Shown here: positions 2,831-12,696 of the stretch, piece after piece | Position numbering within the stretch: position 1 is the first letter of the stretch | How the letters are laid out: the number at the start of each line of letters is the position of its first letter | NCBI GenBank assembly: GCA_022496785.1 | Contig: SNAP01000001.1 | Coordinates: 124,001-188,000 of the forward strand | From: Marinilabiliaceae bacterium JC040 | Lineage (GTDB): Bacteria > Bacteroidota > Bacteroidia > Bacteroidales > Marinifilaceae | Direction: 5' to 3' | Length of the DNA: 64,000 bases | The notes under the pieces: generated by a model | What the model saw: only the letters and a program-made list of their open reading frames with translations | What the model was told of the DNA's origin: nothing | The model's database searches: none | Translations under genes and position numbers: made by a program

Positions 2831-4768
2831 CTATTTCTTTTTATCACTACTAGAAATATTCTTTGTTATTTCTAAAAGATTAACAAACTTAAATTTTGTC
2901 TTTTGTCTTTTATATATTTTTTTATACAATCTATAATAAGCTTTATATTCTTTAGGTAATATTCTTGCTTTCTTCTCTATATATTCTCTTGTATATACTA
3001 ATACTCCTTTATCGAAAGAAAATCTATCTGAATATTTAAAATACTTATTCTCAATATTTAAAACAGAATCTTTTTTCAAGAATATAAAATCTTTAGGCAC
3101 TTTAATTCGAATACTATCAATATGAGTATAGTCTGTTTTAACCACAGCATCATATTTTCTATGCCTACAACGTACAATCTTTAAAGGTATTCTATTATAG
3201 AAAGGCATTCTTATAGATAATGAATTCTTAGCCTTAGAAAGCTTTACAGAATATTTAACTCTATTCAAAACTCTTGCATCTTTTCCTTCATTTAATAATT
3301 TATAGTCTATACTTTCAATTTTAGAACTTCCATTTGAAATTAAACGCTTATGAAATTTCTTTAGATCCTCTTTACTTTCATCCAATTTATAAATATACGA
3401 TTCTGCTAATAATCCAGAACCTATATCTTTAATATCAAACGATACTTTTCCATCTCTAGAAATTTCAATTTCCGAATTTACTCTATTAACATTATCCTTA
3501 TACGAATACATATGAGTATTAACAATCTTTGCTCCTTCATCTTCAATCATCAAAGCTTTTCTGTTTGAATTTCCAGAACCGATATAGTTAAAAGGTATAT
3601 TTTGACTTGTGTTTTCAAGCCAAATAGTATCTTTTTTCATAGGTACACAAACAATTATATGATTAGTTTGAGAAACTGAAGTAAAATCTGGTTTTCTTAT
3701 CTTTAGCTTACCATTCCCTATTTCGCAATAATATGATTCTATACCTGCATATCTTAGAATTGAAACCATAAAATTAGATAAAGCCTTACAATCTCCATAT
3801 CCTGTTTTTCCTACATCACTAGCTTTCATTGGTTGAAGACCGCCTATCCCTAAAGAAATACAAACATATCTTGTTTTAGATTGAAGATATTTATACAAGA
3901 TTCTTACCTTTTCCCTCTTGTCGCTTATACCTTTAATTAACTTATCAACATCATTTTTTGTTTTTTCATCTAGTTCTCTTCTTCCTTTAATCAATTTATT
4001 CATCCACAATCCCCAATTCTTCCAATTCGACATATTTCCACTATAATCGCTATAAATAAAATCTGTTGGATGAAATTCTACATATGGGAATATTTCAAAA
4101 TAATCTGCATATGGTTCGTACTGGAAACATTTCATATTATTAAGCTCTAGAGAATATATAATCCTATCATCAAGCTCTGATTTAACAATTTCTTTATCAA
4201 TATTCTCTTTAAAATACCTAACTTTTATGTCTTTTGGAATATCTACTTTTAAAGATGATTTTTGTATAGAAACTCTTGAAGAAGAGACTGGTAACCATTT
4301 CACATACGAAAGTAATCCATCACATTCTTCTTCGTATTCATATTCAACAGTATATGGATATGTTGTTGGAGTATAAAAGAAACTTTTATTCCTACCATCA
4401 CCTAAAAGAACATATCCAGCATTATTTGAATAATCTTTAATTTCTCTATTTCTAACTTTTTTAATTAGTTTACCATTAGCGTCGTAATATTTTATATAGT
4501 TGATATCTAAATCTATATCTTTACTATATTGAAGTGAAATATTTGCATAATCATCACCTCTATCATCAAGTATAGTTTTTGCAATATGAACAATAGTCTT
4601 TCCTTCACCTTTAGATATTAATTTAAAGGACAAGGAATAATCTCTTATAACAACACAAGATTTACTAAGTAATGGTTTAGGAATTTCCCGTACTGGATAT
4701 TTTTCTTCTTTAGCTATAGTAATATTAGCAAGTAGCAAGAAGAAAAATACAATTAGACTCTTTCTCAT
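2831..4768 (-). CDS. DUF3857 and transglutaminase-like domain exported protein
   Basis: A 645-aa protein with a signal peptide (1-19, TIA-KEE), an N-terminal DUF3857 beta-rich domain (about 50-230) and a transglutaminase-like core (about 270-390). The core looks catalytically complete: Cys326 in GYGDCKAL, His in NHIIVCVP, and an acidic third residue in WLENTSQ, a usual variant of the triad in this family. The C-terminal third is beta-rich (DUF3858-like). Such proteins are periplasmic and probably cleave or crosslink peptides; no substrate is established. It starts at the very base after the stop of the upstream paralogue (4769-6706), so the two are co-transcribed and translationally coupled. 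Confidence 0.85.
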   Translation of the reverse strand: MRKSLIVFFFLLLANITIAKEEKYPVREIPKPLLSKSCVVIRDYSLSFKLISKGEGKTIVHIAKTILDDRGDDYANISLQYSKDIDLDINYIKYYDANGKLIKKVRNREIKDYSNNAGYVLLGDGRNKSFFYTPTTYPYTVEYEYEEECDGLLSYVKWLPVSSSRVSIQKSSLKVDIPKDIKVRYFKENIDKEIVKSELDDRIIYSLELNNMKCFQYEPYADYFEIFPYVEFHPTDFIYSDYSGNMSNWKNWGLWMNKLIKGRRELDEKTKNDVDKLIKGISDKREKVRILYKYLQSKTRYVCISLGIGGLQPMKASDVGKTGYGDCKALSNFMVSILRYAGIESYYCEIGNGKLKIRKPDFTSVSQTNHIIVCVPMKKDTIWLENTSQNIPFNYIGSGNSNRKALMIEDEGAKIVNTHMYSYKDNVNRVNSEIEISRDGKVSFDIKDIGSGLLAESYIYKLDESKEDLKKFHKRLISNGSSKIESIDYKLLNEGKDARVLNRVKYSVKLSKAKNSLSIRMPFYNRIPLKIVRCRHRKYDAVVKTDYTHIDSIRIKVPKDFIFLKKDSVLNIENKYFKYSDRFSFDKGVLVYTREYIEKKARILPKEYKAYYRLYKKIYKRQKTKFKFVNLLEITKNISSSDKKK

Positions 4769-6706
4769 TTAATTATTTTTTTTCAGTACTATTAATTCTT
4801 TAATCTTTTTCTCTAAAGATTCTTGAATTGCTTTAATTGCTGGATATTCATTTACAAAATATCTAATCTTACCAATTTTAAAGATAAAATTTATCTTAAC
4901 TCCACCTTTTAATTTATTACAAGAATAAGAATACAAAATAGATCTATCTGGCGTACATGTTCCATATTTCTCTGGAACATTTGATAAAGTGTATGTATCT
5001 GGATATTTTAATGTAATAGAATATTGTAGAGTTTTAGGATAATCAAAATCTATAGGATAAATACGTTTTTCAGAAACGAAATCATTTGTATATGAATCTA
5101 ATCCCAAAATAGAATTAAATCTAAATTCATCAGTGTCTTCATCTTCCTCTTCATCTGAATCATAAACAAATTTAAATTTCTCCTGAATTACTCCTGAATT
5201 CTTATCTGTATTTAGAACCTCTAAATCATCAATTTCAAAATTCTCATACTTTTTCTCTAGCTTTTCTTGCCTTGTCTCTTTATCAACATATGATCTTCTA
5301 TACGAAGCAGCATCAAAATGATAATACAAAGAAGTATAATCTCCTTTTAATTCATCATTCTCATTAATTTCTGCATTTACAAATATCATTTTCTTAGACA
5401 TTCGTTTATTCTTAAGTTCAACAAATTGGTGATTCTTTTCAGAAACAACAACAGCATTACCTAAATCGTAATAATCTATCATATCCATACTAGAATATTT
5501 ATCATAAGTATCTAAGTAATAATGTTTTTTCGAAGTCGTTAAACTTGCTATTGTATTATTATACTTATGAAGATCAGGAGTATTATAAAGATTCATTCCA
5601 TTATATCTTGTAGATAATAATACTGGATTACAAACAAAACCAGCAGCTTTATATAATGCTATAAGAATAAGGTTTTTACCTCCAGAATTAGATACTTTAT
5701 CTTTAAGAATCTTTCTAAAAGATTTATCATCACATATTTCAAATTCTTTATTCCAACTAATATTATCTCTAACAAATTCGAATATTTTTTTAACTTTTAC
5801 TTCTTCCGACATATCGTCAGTTATGATTGTTTCAAGAGTTTTTTTGATAATATTTTTGTTAGCATATACTTGACCAAAATTTGAATCCATTCTTAAATTT
5901 CTACATGTAGAATCCCAATCTGGTGAAATTCTTGTTGTTTCACTATACAATCTATATGCTTCCAGAGAAAAATCTAGCTTAGAAATATAATCCTCAGGAC
6001 ACATAAGATTTGGCTCAGGTTTAAAAGCAGAAATATTTTTACCAACAAAAATATATTTATTCTCATAAATTGAAGAACCTGCTAATGAAGAAGATTCACG
6101 TTTAATATCAATTGGTACATATCCTTTTAGATCCTTATGGAAAGTAAAAATATCAGGTATCCTTAAAGTGAATTCAGAATACTTTACAGGATAATATCTT
6201 TGAAAATACCAATCTCTATAAGAATACTTTATTGGCATTCTCAAACAATATTCTATTTCAATTATAGATCCGACTTTCACATCTCGCATAGCGACTTTTC
6301 TTTTAGAAAAATCTTTTATTACATTATCTTTTAGAATTTCATTTTTACGGACTTTAGTCTTTACAATTTTATTACCTACTAAATTATAAGTACAAGCTTT
6401 AAATTTTGTAAAACGTTCTTGATTTTCATCATATGAAATAGAAATATCTCCTAACTTATAAGCATCTTTCTTATATATTTTTATAATTCTATGAACCTTA
6501 TATCTTGTTACAAAACTTCTTCCTGTAATATCAAGTTCAAGACTTCCTTTTTCATAAAGGATCTCTGCACTAGCAGTACTATCAATCTTAGAATACTTAG
6601 CTCTAAGTTCTTCTTTTGTTATTTTGCCGAATCTTCTATTATCACCAAATACCGATGATATAAAAGAACATACAACTAACAGTAAAATAATTCGTCTAAA
6701 TTTCAT
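4769..6706 (-). CDS. DUF3857/transglutaminase-like exported protein, catalytic Cys missing
   Basis: A paralogue of the downstream gene, also 645 aa, with signal peptide (1-21, VFG-DNR), DUF3857 region (about 40-270) and a transglutaminase fold near 290-420. In place of the catalytic Cys the strand reads SNSGGKNLILIAL, where active members have GxCxxxxxL, and the His position reads KYNNTIASL. The fold is therefore present but the triad is lost: probably a binding or scaffold subunit. An acidic run (DSDEEEDEDTDE) sits near residue 520. First gene of a two-gene operon; a TATATTTG -7 element lies upstream on the reverse strand at 6733-6740. Confidence 0.85.
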   Translation of the reverse strand: MKFRRIILLLVVCSFISSVFGDNRRFGKITKEELRAKYSKIDSTASAEILYEKGSLELDITGRSFVTRYKVHRIIKIYKKDAYKLGDISISYDENQERFTKFKACTYNLVGNKIVKTKVRKNEILKDNVIKDFSKRKVAMRDVKVGSIIEIEYCLRMPIKYSYRDWYFQRYYPVKYSEFTLRIPDIFTFHKDLKGYVPIDIKRESSSLAGSSIYENKYIFVGKNISAFKPEPNLMCPEDYISKLDFSLEAYRLYSETTRISPDWDSTCRNLRMDSNFGQVYANKNIIKKTLETIITDDMSEEVKVKKIFEFVRDNISWNKEFEICDDKSFRKILKDKVSNSGGKNLILIALYKAAGFVCNPVLLSTRYNGMNLYNTPDLHKYNNTIASLTTSKKHYYLDTYDKYSSMDMIDYYDLGNAVVVSEKNHQFVELKNKRMSKKMIFVNAEINENDELKGDYTSLYYHFDAASYRRSYVDKETRQEKLEKKYENFEIDDLEVLNTDKNSGVIQEKFKFVYDSDEEEDEDTDEFRFNSILGLDSYTNDFVSEKRIYPIDFDYPKTLQYSITLKYPDTYTLSNVPEKYGTCTPDRSILYSYSCNKLKGGVKINFIFKIGKIRYFVNEYPAIKAIQESLEKKIKELIVLKKNN

Positions 6707-6873
6707 ATATGTATATTTTAGTAATTAGTACACAAATATATTACACAATATAATTAATTCCTAACATTATTTAACATTTAATAATATTTCATCACAACAA
6801 ATATTATAAGATTAAAGAATTATAAATAAGAATGATACTAAACTGAACTTCTTTCTTTTTTGTTCTAAAATTA

Positions 6874-6881
6874 TATCTTTG
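6874..6881 (+). promoter_or_regulatory. putative -7 element of the TonB receptor/chelatase operon
   Basis: TATCTTTG matches the Bacteroidota -7 consensus TAnnTTTG about 75 nt before the receptor gene. The nearest TTTG upstream (6859-6862) is only 11 nt away, so the -33 half is not convincing. No cobalamin riboswitch or other structured leader was recognised in the leader 6882-6954. Confidence 0.4.
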
Positions 6882-6954
6882 GTTTATATATATCATAATT
6901 CTCAGGAATAAGAATTTATGGTAAGAAAAAAGATATACGCAATAACAAATATAC

Positions 6955-8997
6955 ATGAAGCAAATTAAACACATAATTACCATGGTAATTTTATGTGCAT
7001 TGACATATACATCTTATGCACAAAATGATAGTATAGTAAATTCTATCGATCTTAATGAAATTGTAATTACTGGTACAGGAACAAGACACAATTACAAAAG
7101 TGCACCTGTTCAAACTTTAGTAATATCTAAAAAAGATATAAAACAATTTTCAGGAAAGAATATACAAGATATATTATCAAGTTTAAATCCGAGTTTCAAC
7201 TTTAATCAAAGCGATATGGGCTCTGGTATACAATTAGGAGGATTAAAAAACGACTATATCTTAATTCTTGTAGATGGTAAGAGATTAAATGGTGATATTG
7301 GAGGACAAAACGATTTAAGCGCAATTGATATAGAAAGTATAGAAAGAATAGAAATTGTAAAAGGAGCTTCATCTTCTCTTTATGGTTCAGATGCAATAGC
7401 TGGCGTTATAAATATCATAACAAAGAAAGAATCTTTTTTATCAAAACTTGCATCATCCTTTACAAATACTTCTAGAATTGGAATGTACGGAGAATGGAAA
7501 CAATCTAATAGATTGAACATTAAAATAGGTAAATTAAAATCAACAACTCATTACAGTCGCAAACATACAGATGGTTGGTCAAATACTAATAAAGAAAGAA
7601 CTAGAGCTGGAATAGAAAACACAATCACCCAAACTGTTAGTAAGTACACCAATTATAAAATAAAAGAAAGTTTATCATATAGAATAAATAAATCTCTATC
7701 AATACATACGGGAGGATCGATATACAATAAAACAATATATAGAGAATGTGGCCCAACACAATATAGAACATACGACTTAGAATACAAGGCCTATTCTAGT
7801 GAATTAGGAATGGATTTAAAGCTTAGTAATTACAATAAAATTACATTTGAATTAGATTACGATAAAAGAGATTATTTCCATAATCACAATAAATTCACAA
7901 TGGAATCGTACAAAGATGAAAACAATAAATATCTAATTTTTGAAGATGGAGATGATATTAAGCAAAATAGTCAAGAAAGATTTACAGCTCAAACTAAAGG
8001 TATTTTTCACCTAAATGAAAACAACACTTTAAACGTTGGTCTAGAATACATTCATGAATTCTTAAAACCTTATAAATACATATATCATAGCAATTCAGAG
8101 GCATACTTAGCCTCTGCTTATGCTCAAAATGAATGGCAGATAAATAAAGATATTAATATTACTTCTGGACTTCGTTTGAACTATCACAAAGAATTTGGAA
8201 TTCATTTAAACCCAAAAATCTCTGGGATGTATAAAATAGATAAATACGTAATAAGAGCAACCTATTCAAGTGGTTTTAAATCTCCAACACTTAAACAATT
8301 ATATTATAATTACACTAGAGAGGCAATGGGATATACAGAATATCTTAGTAATAGAGATCTTAAACCTCAAACATCAAATTATTTTTCTTTAGGCTGTGAA
8401 TATAATACAAACAAATTCTCAAGTTCATTAACAGGATCAATAAATCTTTTAGATAATGTTATTGAATTATATCAAGTGAAACGTAGCAATTCACAAATAT
8501 TAAGAGGGATACAAAAAGCTAAACAATACAAAAACATATCTGATGCATATAGTAATAACATCGATTTTTTACTAAAATATTCTCCTAACAAAAGATGGTT
8601 GTTTGGAGGTGGTTACAGCTTTATATATGCAAAAGGGAATATTCTAAATAAGGATAATAAACATGAATCAGTTATATTAGATGGAAGTTCTAAACATCAT
8701 GCTAATCTTTTTATCAGATGGAATAAAAAATGGAAAAAACAAAACTTATCTTTAGGATTTTATGGTAATGGGCAATCCAAAAGATATTACAGATACAATG
8801 GGAATACCGACCCATACTGTTTGTTTAAGATAACAGGAACTTATGAATATAAAGGCTTTAAACATGTAAATATTAATATACAATCTGGTATTGATAATAT
8901 TTTAGATTATAAATGCACAAAACCTCATGCTTATAATTATAATACTAAAACACCAGGAAGAACAGTCTTTATAGCTTTAACAATAAAAATTAAATAA
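6955..8997 (+). CDS. TonB-dependent outer-membrane receptor, metal/tetrapyrrole uptake type
   Basis: A 680-aa outer-membrane receptor that imports a ligand with energy from TonB. It has a signal peptide (1-22, SYA-QND), a TonB-box-like start (LNEIVITGTGTRH, 34-46), a plug domain (about 50-150: GKNIQDILSSL, ILVDGKRLNG, IERIEIVKGASSSLYG, GVINIITK) and a beta-barrel from about 170. There is no carboxypeptidase-regulatory or STN extension, so it is of the BtuB/HmuR class, not SusC. It lies 19 nt before a chelatase lipoprotein, which suggests haem, cobalamin, corrinoid or free metal as the ligand. The exact substrate is not readable. Confidence 0.9.
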   Translation: MKQIKHIITMVILCALTYTSYAQNDSIVNSIDLNEIVITGTGTRHNYKSAPVQTLVISKKDIKQFSGKNIQDILSSLNPSFNFNQSDMGSGIQLGGLKNDYILILVDGKRLNGDIGGQNDLSAIDIESIERIEIVKGASSSLYGSDAIAGVINIITKKESFLSKLASSFTNTSRIGMYGEWKQSNRLNIKIGKLKSTTHYSRKHTDGWSNTNKERTRAGIENTITQTVSKYTNYKIKESLSYRINKSLSIHTGGSIYNKTIYRECGPTQYRTYDLEYKAYSSELGMDLKLSNYNKITFELDYDKRDYFHNHNKFTMESYKDENNKYLIFEDGDDIKQNSQERFTAQTKGIFHLNENNTLNVGLEYIHEFLKPYKYIYHSNSEAYLASAYAQNEWQINKDINITSGLRLNYHKEFGIHLNPKISGMYKIDKYVIRATYSSGFKSPTLKQLYYNYTREAMGYTEYLSNRDLKPQTSNYFSLGCEYNTNKFSSSLTGSINLLDNVIELYQVKRSNSQILRGIQKAKQYKNISDAYSNNIDFLLKYSPNKRWLFGGGYSFIYAKGNILNKDNKHESVILDGSSKHHANLFIRWNKKWKKQNLSLGFYGNGQSKRYYRYNGNTDPYCLFKITGTYEYKGFKHVNINIQSGIDNILDYKCTKPHAYNYNTKTPGRTVFIALTIKIK

Positions 8998-9016: not shown

Positions 9017-10075
9017 ATGAAACATTTATTGAACTATGCTTTAATAGCAATTACATTTGCTATTTTCTCTACTAGCATTTCATCTTGTAGCAACGATGAA
9101 GATATCACTCCAAAATTAAGTATTCCAAAAACTATCAATCTAGTCCCTCTAATGACAATAGCAGGAGATCACTCTCACAACGACATGGCTGGAGTTGCAG
9201 AAGAAGGAGATAGTTGGAGAGAACAATTATTAAAAGCAGGATACAAATGTGACATAAAAGATAATTGTTATCAAGTAGGATTAGGAGATTTTGAAGACAT
9301 TCAAGAAATATGGATTAAACACCTAAGAGATGCTATAAAAACTATAGATTCCCCTAAAGCATCAAAATCGACTTCTACAAAACAATATACAAGTAAGGAC
9401 ACAAGATTGAAATTTGCAAAAACAAGCAACACTGCAGTACTACTTGTAACTTTTGGTAGTACAATGGAAGGTCCCCATTCAACATATGCAAAAGAAGTTG
9501 CTGCATTTAGAAAAGCTTTCCCCGGAACCGATGTATTTATGGCTTTCACATCACCACTATGTATCTCAAGATGGTTTACAAAAAAGAATGAATATTACGG
9601 ACAACCATACGAATATTTCGAGGCATTTAAGACTTTAGCTTATGAAAATGTTTACGTACAATCTCTACATGCTACAAAAGGTGTTGAATTTAATGGTGGT
9701 AAAAATAGTGAAGGAACTCTTCATGGTTTAAAAAACTACTACGATTTATTTGTTGGGCAAAACCCAAGTGTTAAAACTTGTCTAGGTTTACCTCTGCTAA
9801 GTAGTGTTGAAGATATAAAAGCTGTTGGTGATTTTATTTATAACGAATACAAGGCAGAAATTCTAAACGGAGCTTCATTAGTATTAATGGGACATGGTAA
9901 CGAAGAAGATGCTGATTCACCAATGAGCACAGCTAATACATATCTTGAAGTTGAGAAATATTTGCAATCAAAAAATTCAGATATATATGTTGGAACTGTT
10001 GATTGTCCAACTGTAAGTTTTGATAGAGTACTTGAGGAATTGAATAAGAAATATGGAGTTGCAAAAAAGAAGTAA
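9017..10075 (+). CDS. CbiK-type chelatase lipoprotein, circularly permuted
   Basis: A 352-aa lipoprotein (signal peptide with lipobox ISSC, Cys24) related to anaerobic sirohydrochlorin cobaltochelatase CbiK, a class II chelatase. The domain order is unusual. Residues 40-110 (NLVPLMTIAGDHSHNDMAG, DSWREQL, VGLGDFEDIQEIW) correspond to the C-terminal segment of canonical CbiK, while residues 138-345 (VLLVTFGSTMEG, AFTSPLCISRW, QSLHATKGVEF, GLPLLSS, LVLMGHGNEED, VGTVDCPT) correspond to its N-terminal portion. A Ser/Thr/Lys linker (111-137) joins them. The equivalents of the metal ligands His145, His207 and Glu89 of Salmonella CbiK are His293, His52 and Glu224, so the active site could still assemble. 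Co-transcribed with the TonB receptor; likely on the periplasmic side of a membrane, handling metal or tetrapyrrole. Confidence 0.88.
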   Translation: MKHLLNYALIAITFAIFSTSISSCSNDEDITPKLSIPKTINLVPLMTIAGDHSHNDMAGVAEEGDSWREQLLKAGYKCDIKDNCYQVGLGDFEDIQEIWIKHLRDAIKTIDSPKASKSTSTKQYTSKDTRLKFAKTSNTAVLLVTFGSTMEGPHSTYAKEVAAFRKAFPGTDVFMAFTSPLCISRWFTKKNEYYGQPYEYFEAFKTLAYENVYVQSLHATKGVEFNGGKNSEGTLHGLKNYYDLFVGQNPSVKTCLGLPLLSSVEDIKAVGDFIYNEYKAEILNGASLVLMGHGNEEDADSPMSTANTYLEVEKYLQSKNSDIYVGTVDCPTVSFDRVLEELNKKYGVAKKK

Positions 10076-10146: not shown

Positions 10147-10177
10147 AGAGGTTACCTATCGGTAACCTCTCTTTTTA
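10147..10177 (+). terminator. intrinsic terminator after the chelatase gene
   Basis: A perfect 10-bp stem AGAGGTTACC / GGTAACCTCT with a TATC loop, followed by CTTTTT. It ends the receptor-chelatase operon. The rest of the 305-nt gap to the M6 protease gene shows only AT-rich sequence with a weak TATCTTAG near 10345. Confidence 0.9.
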
Positions 10178-10380: not shown

Positions 10381-12696
10381 ATGAACTTTTTAAAAAGCTA
10401 TATAAAACCTATTTTCATTGTATTTTTTATTATATTTTATTCATCATTGTCAATAGGGCAGAATACAAATAAAACTCCAACATATCCGTATTTAAAAACC
10501 TTTATTCAAAAAGATGGAAGTAAGATAAAACTATTCTACAAAGGAGATAATCATATCAATTGGTTTGAAACAGAAAAAGGGGAAAAAGTATTAATAAACT
10601 CAGATGGTAATTATGTTTATGCAGAATTAGATTCTCAAGGGAAAATGATACCATCAGACAAACTTGTAGAGAAAGATGGTTTTTTTCTTTTCAGACTTTT
10701 TTCCAATGCAGAACCTAAAGGACAAATTGATATCTTTTTTAATAAAGCTCAGATTGAGAAACAAATAAATTACAACAATCCTAAGATATCTAACAAAATA
10801 CGAACTAAAACTATATGTCCTACAAAAGGTAATATTAGAATGCTAACAGTTTTAGTAGAATTCTCAGATCTTCCACACCAATTCTCAAAAGATAAATTTG
10901 AGGATATGATGAATCAACCTGATTATAAATCTAGAGGATCTTTTAAAGATTACTATAGCAAATGTTCTTATGGCAAACTAAACGTTAGTACCGATGTTAT
11001 TGGATGGATAAAAGTTGATAGACCTCAAGCATATTATGGAGGAAACAATGAATATAATTCTGATAGCAATCCTAGAGTACTTCTTCACGATATAATAAAA
11101 CAGATAAAAAAACTAGATATTGACTTTAGTAAATATGACAGTAATAGTGACGGTTTAATAGATGTAATACACATCATTCACTCTGGCTATGGTGAAGAGT
11201 CTGGCGAAGATCCTAACGCAATATGGTCTCATCAAAGGACTTTAAAAGATAAAATACAAGTCAAAGGGAATTACTATGTAAACAACTACTTCACTTCTCC
11301 AGAACTATCTTCATATAAAAGAAATGAAATAACAAGTATAGGGGTAATATGTCACGAATATGGACATGCCTTAGGCTTGATGGACTATTACGATACCGAT
11401 TATAACGAATCAGGTGGTAGAAGCCTTGGACTTAGAAATTGGGATTTAATGGCTAGTGGATTTTGGAACGATAAAGGGAACAGTCCTGCATATACAAATG
11501 CATACTCTAAATATCTTCTTGGATGGATATATTTAAAAGAACTTGGAATGAATCAAGATATTGTTCTAAACAATATAGAAGAAAACGAAGAAGGGTATAT
11601 TATTAGTACAAGAAATAAGTCAGAATTCTTTGTATTAGAAAATAGGCAAAAGATAGGCTTTGACAAAGAACTCCCACATCATGGATTACTAATATACAAG
11701 ATTGATAGATCAGACGACTCATGGAAAGAAAATGAAATAAATATAAATCCAGATGACGAACACTTAAAACTACTACGCTCTCATTCTTTTAGTCAATACG
11801 CACCTTTCCCAGGAGACAATGATGTTACAAAAATTACAGATTACACTAGTCCTAGTAATTTTCTTACAAAGAAGAGAGATTACTCACATAAAGGTCTTAT
11901 TGAAATTAAAGAGTCTAGGAAGATTATCTATGCAAAATACATACATGACGATAGAAAATACAATAAAGTCTCTGTAGAAGTCTCTAATGAAGGCGAACCA
12001 GTTGAAAACGCAGAAGTTTCTATAGTAAGATTACATTTTGGAACGAATCAATCAGCAGAGAGTGTACAAACTGATGAAAATGGAATAGTAAATTTCTCTG
12101 AAATTGGAGATGGTACATATCAAATTGTTGTTAATAACGATAAGTATAACGAATATAAAAAAGAAGTATTTATTTATGGTAACACAACAATAAATGTAGA
12201 ATTAGAAAAAAAAGAACAATTAGATATAAGAATACAAGAAAATGGAGAAAATATAAGTAATGCTCTTATTGAAATTATAACATCCAACAGTAGACAGAAA
12301 CATTATACAAATTCAGATGGTATAGCATACTTTACAAACATGAAAATGGATGAATATATCGTAAAGATTACTAAGAAACATTATATCACAAAAGAAGAAT
12401 ATATTAATTATTCAAAACCTCAAGAAATAATATTTGAAATTGAGAGAAATAAAGATAGCAAAGATGAATTAATATTATATCCTAATCCTTGTCATGGAGA
12501 ATTCACAATTTCATATCCTCTTGAAGGAAGAAAAACCCTAAGAATTTTTGATATTAGTGGACATCTTCTTTTGGAAAACGAAAATCTTGAAGGCAACGAA
12601 AACACTATTAATATCTCTAATATAAGTCCAGGAGTATATATTGTTGTTATTAATTCAAAAAATAATACAGTGAGTAAAAAGCTTATAATCAAATAA
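10381..12696 (+). CDS. secreted M6 family metalloprotease with T9SS sorting domain
   Basis: A 771-aa extracellular zinc endopeptidase related to immune inhibitor A. Domains in order: signal peptide (1-26, SIG-QNT); propeptide (about 30-140); catalytic M6 domain with a calcium-type loop DSNSDGLID (253-261) and zinc site HEYGHALGLMD (His325, His329, Asp335); two carboxypeptidase-regulatory-like beta domains (about 530-690, NAEVSIVRL, NALIEII); and a type A T9SS C-terminal domain (699-771, LYPNPCHGEFTI, NISPGVYIVVI, KKLIIK) that directs secretion and surface attachment. The gene stands alone. It may release peptides for the S46 peptidase type of pathway; substrate unknown. Confidence 0.93.
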   Translation: MNFLKSYIKPIFIVFFIIFYSSLSIGQNTNKTPTYPYLKTFIQKDGSKIKLFYKGDNHINWFETEKGEKVLINSDGNYVYAELDSQGKMIPSDKLVEKDGFFLFRLFSNAEPKGQIDIFFNKAQIEKQINYNNPKISNKIRTKTICPTKGNIRMLTVLVEFSDLPHQFSKDKFEDMMNQPDYKSRGSFKDYYSKCSYGKLNVSTDVIGWIKVDRPQAYYGGNNEYNSDSNPRVLLHDIIKQIKKLDIDFSKYDSNSDGLIDVIHIIHSGYGEESGEDPNAIWSHQRTLKDKIQVKGNYYVNNYFTSPELSSYKRNEITSIGVICHEYGHALGLMDYYDTDYNESGGRSLGLRNWDLMASGFWNDKGNSPAYTNAYSKYLLGWIYLKELGMNQDIVLNNIEENEEGYIISTRNKSEFFVLENRQKIGFDKELPHHGLLIYKIDRSDDSWKENEININPDDEHLKLLRSHSFSQYAPFPGDNDVTKITDYTSPSNFLTKKRDYSHKGLIEIKESRKIIYAKYIHDDRKYNKVSVEVSNEGEPVENAEVSIVRLHFGTNQSAESVQTDENGIVNFSEIGDGTYQIVVNNDKYNEYKKEVFIYGNTTINVELEKKEQLDIRIQENGENISNALIEIITSNSRQKHYTNSDGIAYFTNMKMDEYIVKITKKHYITKEEYINYSKPQEIIFEIERNKDSKDELILYPNPCHGEFTISYPLEGRKTLRIFDISGHLLLENENLEGNENTINISNISPGVYIVVINSKNNTVSKKLIIK

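Follow-up and report, generated by a model that had tools for sequence, protein, structure and literature searches.

A circularly permuted CbiK-family lipoprotein encoded behind a TonB-dependent receptor in Marinilabiliaceae bacterium JC040

The CbiK family consists of class II, ATP-independent tetrapyrrole chelatases, which insert metals into ring-shaped pigments. Salmonella CbiK, a sirohydrochlorin cobaltochelatase, is cytoplasmic. For CbiKP of Desulfovibrio vulgaris, whose His96 we take to be the heme ligand, we know of no lipid anchor or TonB partner, and to our knowledge the collinear receptor-linked CbiK-like lipoproteins of Bacteroidales have not been the subject of a study. The PDB title of CbiKP (2xvx, 2xvz) describes it as periplasmic. 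FetB/IhtB of Porphyromonas gingivalis (9b86) is a CbiK-family lipoprotein of the Iht system, encoded directly behind a TonB receptor. The iht operon has been discussed in connection with heme or iron. According to the accessible parts of PMC10913741, IhtB is believed to remove iron from heme on behalf of IhtA, and binding protein, permease, and ATPase genes (IhtC-E) belong to the operon. In the B12 uptake system of Bacteroides, BtuB and BtuG combine a TonB receptor with a lipoprotein of the same locus, and BtuG is described as binding B12 and not as acting as a chelatase (PMC6143338, accessible parts).

The gene studied here lies at 9017..10075 (+) of the window, by which we mean the whole 64,000-nucleotide stretch analysed. 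It is an intact open reading frame of 352 amino acids with the stop at 10073-10075, and the chain runs in the order signal peptide, segment B, linker, segment A. The signal peptide and lipobox (9017..9088, +; SISS-Cys24), followed by an acidic S-N-D-E-D stretch, were read by eye; comparable acidic stretches also follow the cysteine in several collinear relatives. Segment B (residues 39-110; 9131..9346, +) is the canonical C-terminal unit, here placed first, and contains PLMTIAGDHSHNDMAG, DSW, and GLGD. A linker (residues 111-137; 9347..9427, +) then joins the old C-terminus to the old N-terminus and leads into segment A (residues 138-346; 9428..10054, +), the canonical N-terminal three quarters, which was delimited by profile and structure-relative matches. 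A sequence-only reading of the window had put the moved unit directly after the lipobox; the unit does come first behind a lipoprotein signal, and the lipobox cysteine is now placed at Cys24. The linker that it proposed at residues 111-137 is supported by weak or absent alignment to relatives and by lower confidence in the structure model (pLDDT 57 for block 111-120 and 74 for block 121-130).

A search against solved structures gave three matches, all in two pieces with the order swapped. FetB (9b86; whole-sequence E 1.4e-34) aligned residues 134-343 of the window protein with its own 26-217 and residues 39-104 with 223-288. CbiKP (2xvx) aligned 135-344 with 6-198 and 38-108 with 202-266, and Salmonella CbiK (1qgo) aligned 140-299 with 4-151 and 40-108 with 195-257. 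The Pfam CbiK family (PF06180) scored 143.3 bits against a curated cut-off of 26.2, split into two stretches: profile positions 2-195 corresponded to residues 140-345, and the C-terminal unit was matched at residues 38-109. As no single collinear CbiK match was obtained, we class the protein as a permuted variant and not as an ordinary CbiK member. The C-terminal positions 193-258 of the NCBIfam CbiK equivalog model (NF047852) likewise matched residues 38-109, with a whole score of 100.8 bits that lies below the equivalog cut-off of 400, a value also missed by five collinear relatives (79-206 bits).

The same order was seen when a family profile was compared with the mature window protein while the chain start was shifted by every third residue. 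The profile was built from 76 relatives of a set of 82 proteins (73 collinear with both segments and three with segment B only), the window protein, L092-L095, and L098 being left out. The native order gave 171 bits and the best rotation, with the chain start near residue 112, gave 258 bits; for five collinear relatives used as controls, the native ends were the best chain start to within 0.4 bit. A separate significant match for each half, together with this rise on rotation, places the permutation beyond chance. These results support the view that the CbiK fold is truly circularly permuted here and is preceded by a lipoprotein signal. The swapped segment order claimed by the sequence-only reading is thereby upheld, and a collinear alignment of the natural order, which would have spoken against it, was not found, the collinear profile fitting the native order worse than the rotated one.

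The metal-site residues are kept. By hand counting on the 1qgo alignment, CbiK His207 corresponds to His52 (9170..9172, +), Glu89 to Glu224 (9686..9688, +), and His145 to His293 (9893..9895, +), so the three residues that had been proposed from the sequence as kept all align. Salmonella CbiK shares the fold and these equivalents with the window protein, and differs from it in its canonical order and in the equivalog score that the window protein does not reach. CbiKP, a class II chelatase outside the cytoplasm, as the window protein would be, aligns in both metal histidines and the glutamate; it has the canonical order, and the position counted as its His96 is Asn226 in the window protein.

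The fold was modelled with AlphaFold2. Two input alignments were rejected, the first because MAFFT put segment A fragments on the N-terminus of the query and the second because it split the segment B fragments. The alignment used (query, 25 A fragments, and 12 B fragments) was picked from 120 random row subsets because its A fragments and its B fragments lay on their own halves. This selection fixes the half for each fragment, so the model is not an independent test of the half assignment; the packing of the halves is tested, since the query is the only row that contains both. The permuted protein gave a mean pLDDT of 86.5 and a pTM of 0.84 with both halves in one domain, similar to a collinear relative of 360 amino acids (L050) modelled as a control (pLDDT 87.6, pTM 0.85). 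If segment A alone (about 210 of 352 residues) had been placed, we estimate a pTM near 0.6, which indicates that segment B was placed as well.

The main strands and helices follow in the same succession in the permuted model, read from residue 138 round to 110, and in the control. The permuted model is without the short E312-315 and H251-256 of L050, has a short H80-83 and two short linker strands in addition, and splits H129-146 of L050 into H223-226 and H238-248. Sequential superposition of the permuted model on 9b86 covered 192 of 261 residues (Z 17.5, rmsd 1.9, TMt 0.66), with 138-348 on 9-201, and stopped after segment A; the uncovered part of 9b86 is the moved unit. The L050 model covered 261 of 261 (Z 32.8, rmsd 2.1, TMt 0.89). 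The moved unit had been described as beta-alpha-beta-alpha. A moved unit it is, although in the model it consists of one strand and helices (E39-44, H51-57, H67-73, H80-83, and H93-110). The model puts residues 39-110 in one domain with segment A, so that the failure of residues 40-110 to pack, which would have spoken against the permutation, did not appear in it. Both halves are predicted to assemble into a single two-domain chelatase of the ordinary kind, its cleft restored.

The permuted order was searched for in nine overlapping genome sets: 59 relatives, the genus (1), family (56), order (393), class (395), and phylum (395), and the families of three further genomes, G142 (38), G423 (101), and G114 (221, covered at least for the matches listed). 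Among the matches listed, a single match through both halves was given by the window's genome only, which is the sole genome of its genus in the search set. The first set of loci comprised 82 distinct proteins including the window protein; 73 of them had both segments, all in the order A-B, and the other eight had one segment only or were truncated or odd (L065, L092-L095, L098, L100, and L101). The loci from the G423 and G114 families added 22 open reading frames, again all A-B, so that a search for homologues with the swapped order, as had been suggested, returned one genome, against 95 of 95 collinear among the relatives in which both segments were found. Matches outside the extracted loci in the family and order sets and in the families of G142, G423, and G114, inspected by eye, were A-B wherever both parts of one gene were listed.

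The same genome has a second CbiK on contig C99 (L113 8249-9106, -), which is collinear and carries a Sec-type signal by eye. A PF06180 search of this genome gave no CbiK besides these two, though cbi genes are present at C87. A horizontal origin was considered and set aside: tblastn against plasmids gave distant CbiK only (six records, best E 5e-10), and a scan of genome contigs gave one relative (L034), which is collinear.

In a 74-row tree, the rotated window protein fell inside a 27-row clade with SH-aLRT 100. Segment A alone gave the same clade (SH-aLRT 99), and segment B alone did not resolve its position. After FetB and a further eight relatives were included (85 rows), it fell in a 35-row clade (SH-aLRT 100) made up mostly of receptor-linked lipoproteins, together with signal-less CbiK-type proteins of family f88. 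P. gingivalis FetB (L138, L139) and L140 formed their own group outside this clade, in what is a quick tree with long branches. A FetB-type label for the window protein had been based on the tree without FetB, and was dropped once the added FetB grouped elsewhere. On these trees, the window protein belongs to a mostly TonB-receptor-linked lipoprotein clade beside FetB/IhtB and is not FetB proper. Its branch is long (1.1 and 1.27 in the 74-row and 85-row trees), and the nearest row by path in the 85-row tree is L117 of genome G1221. As a side observation, signal-less CbiK-type genes at L105 6038-7964 (-) and L106 7136-9116 (+) lie beside a membrane-protein reading frame with MHIMEGYLP or similar, which is presumably CbiM-like.

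The receptor gene (6955..8997, +; Pfam Plug and barrel) lies 19 bp upstream of the lipoprotein gene. Its product matches the receptors of 29 receptor-lipoprotein loci (6 + 23) with phmmer scores of 438-611 bits, and in all 29 the receptor directly precedes a collinear CbiK-like lipoprotein. The best-scoring receptor (L141, 611 bits) belongs to the same locus as L117, as would be expected if receptor and lipoprotein descended together. The collinear Bacteroidales lipoproteins L117/L141, L075/L104, and L050/L107 resemble the window protein in clade, lipobox, and upstream receptor, and differ in their canonical order and in having a riboswitch upstream. FetB/IhtB shares with it the place directly behind a TonB receptor, the fold segments, the metal-site motifs, and the lipobox with signal peptide; its order is canonical and its clade another. 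No binding protein, permease, or ATPase genes adjoin the window pair, unlike the iht operon. The downstream neighbour is an M6 metalloprotease gene with a type IX secretion sorting domain (10381-12696, +), and the upstream neighbours are two abutting 645-aa DUF3857/transglutaminase-like genes (2831-6706, -). A bidirectional terminator-like hairpin follows the lipoprotein gene at 10147..10170 (+), with a 10-pair stem and then a T run, identified by consensus match only.

The intergenic stretch upstream of the receptor (6707..6954, +) contains no detectable cobalamin riboswitch: RF00174 gave no match at the window locus at gathering and none up to E 10, and Rfam gave no family there at gathering and one chance snoRNA row up to E 10. 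The RNase P and tRNA matches of the RNA searches were unrelated. Among the pair loci, RF00174 lies upstream of the receptor in 18 of 29. The first search covered eight of 14 neighbourhood loci: L113, L116, and six that contain the pair. Outside it were L109, L111, L114, and L115, each with the pair, and L105 and L106, which lack it. RF00174 preceded the receptor or its operon in all six pair loci covered, heading a longer gene row in L110. The second covered 26 loci, 23 of them with the pair (all but L150, L151, and L153), and found RF00174 within about 220 nt upstream of the receptor in 12, overlapping the start of an over-long open reading frame in L141. The 11 pairs without upstream RF00174 were L144, L145, L146, L148, L149, L152, L154, L155, L156, L159, and L162. 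Of these, L146 has its sole riboswitch downstream, L159 and L162 are cut at the region start, and L148, L149, L152, and L154-L156 sit behind genes whose first residues suggest cobalamin biosynthesis.

The P. gingivalis iht operon, recognised by its FetB sequence, is L138, where a riboswitch (2547-2786, +) is followed by TonB (2984-5257) and FetB (5286-6167) genes; L139 and L140 are arranged likewise. The cobalamin riboswitch of the iht operon (L138, L139) is a further difference from the window locus. Two papers searched for a pairing of an iht-type operon with this riboswitch contained no mention of iht. The riboswitches suggest corrinoids, instead of or besides heme or iron, in the relatives' loci, and this tie, seen in many relatives, is absent at the window locus. 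The window's own genome does have a cobalamin riboswitch, at C87 beside cbi genes. This cobalamin cluster (L116, C87:40000-58000) also contains TonB receptor-like genes, a DUF5074 protein, binding proteins, CbiA, a CbiJ-CbiD fusion, and a CbiG-methylase fusion.

Our main reading, to which we give a probability of about three in four, is that of a permuted CbiK-family, receptor-linked lipoprotein that acts on the metal of a bound tetrapyrrole. The protein would be lipid-anchored at the outer membrane and would work with the TonB receptor as BtuG does with BtuB, a pair that is by analogy a plausible model for this one. It would bind a metal tetrapyrrole, and a divalent metal may be inserted, removed, or exchanged at His52, His293, and Glu224 before uptake. 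Most likely the protein would serve the receptor as a metal-tetrapyrrole chelatase or binder. Since the anchor now comes before segment B, the lipid would be 15 residues away from the strand that runs to His52 and would no longer adjoin the N-terminal domain.

The binder without enzyme activity is the strongest competing explanation, although we hold it at clearly less than even odds. Here the permuted protein would hold a metal tetrapyrrole (heme, a corrinoid, or a precursor) for the TonB receptor in the manner of a hemophore or BtuG. The receptor directly upstream, the deposition of FetB 9b86 as 'heme-binding protein', and the precedent of the BtuG lipoprotein beside BtuB (PMC6143338, accessible parts) all fit this, whereas the retention of all three CbiK metal-site residues favours an enzyme. 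According to the accessible parts of a review (PMC13402209), P. gingivalis FetB inserts manganese into protoporphyrin, which also speaks for catalysis; as FetB lies outside the clade of the window protein, its activity transfers weakly.

A bolder form of the chelatase reading, which we regard as doubtful, makes the permutation itself functional. The lipid of collinear relatives is continued by the N-terminal domain, that of the window protein by the C-terminal unit. In Salmonella CbiK, His207 of this unit is reported to shift by about 5.5 angstrom on ligand binding (PMC4063343, accessible parts). Attachment might then act directly on the metal-binding arm and turn the cleft to the receptor for hand-over, the pair having been reassigned to another metal tetrapyrrole. 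With neither a B12 riboswitch nor adjoining transporter genes, the locus would on this proposal be a receptor-chelatase machine for another tetrapyrrole.

As to its origin, the permutation most likely arose within the receptor-lipoprotein locus, where the partner of a conserved pair was permuted in place. The conserved position behind the TonB receptor, the clade placement, and the L117/L141 match argue for a gene permuted where it stands. The simplest route would be duplication in tandem, after which the first A and the last B were lost. Tandem collinear CbiK-like genes were found at L110 6998-9162 (-, G114), L111 7237-9068 (+, G387), and L136 1375-3536 (+, G1358), with a TonB receptor before them in L110 and L111, and such pairs are a possible stage on the way to permutation. 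In G334 (L109 7690-7881, -), a broken C-terminal piece of CbiK with segment B only lies upstream of an intact CbiK gene; no such fragment was seen in the matching gap of L115. Tandem copies and this fragment show that the family has the raw material for such a route. At the window locus, the 305 bp after the gene, inspected by eye in six frames, showed nothing CbiK-like that could be left from a lost copy. A tblastn search of the window with the protein returned the protein itself as the only significant match, and the repeats at the junctions are short.

An unlikely origin is a chimera, in which segment B of another CbiK paralogue was set before a truncated gene of the window's clade. Against the genome's own C99 CbiK, segment B is 52% identical and segment A only 29%, and the tree of B alone, as noted, does not place it. 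However, B is generally the better conserved part in the listed relatives, and its best pairwise scores are with f88 rows (193, 184), then with L010 of its own family (178), C99 reaching 169; segment A likewise scores best with f88 rows.

Improbable too is a domain-swapped oligomer, in which the permutation forces a dimer and segment B completes the fold of another molecule: the flexible linker would permit the swap, but the monomer model is highly confident in the position of both halves (pTM 0.84). An assembly chimera or decaying gene is scarcely credible, for although the draft genome has 117 contigs and 2.29% contamination, the order occurs once, and the branch is long, about 133 kb separate the gene from the nearer end of its 534-kb contig, the reading frame is uninterrupted between signal peptide and stop, the receptor, spacing, and terminator-like hairpin are intact, and the active-site residues are kept.

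The permuted in-place chelatase proposed here is new in the order of its chain, not in its location, and is a single-genome variant of a known family in a known type of locus. The sequence-only reading had suggested that a chelatase tethered outside the cytoplasm would be a new architecture; this does not stand, since that location is known from IhtB/FetB (PMC10913741, accessible parts; 9b86) and from periplasmic CbiKP. No report of a class II chelatase that is circularly permuted in nature was found in the accessible parts of the open-licence literature. With a cobalamin riboswitch before many such loci, the iht operon included, a corrinoid or cobalt role becomes directly testable. With the window protein itself, the dependence of the chelatase fold on the starting point of the chain can be tested in a natural protein, as can the role of the lipid anchor in receptor-linked CbiK-like proteins.
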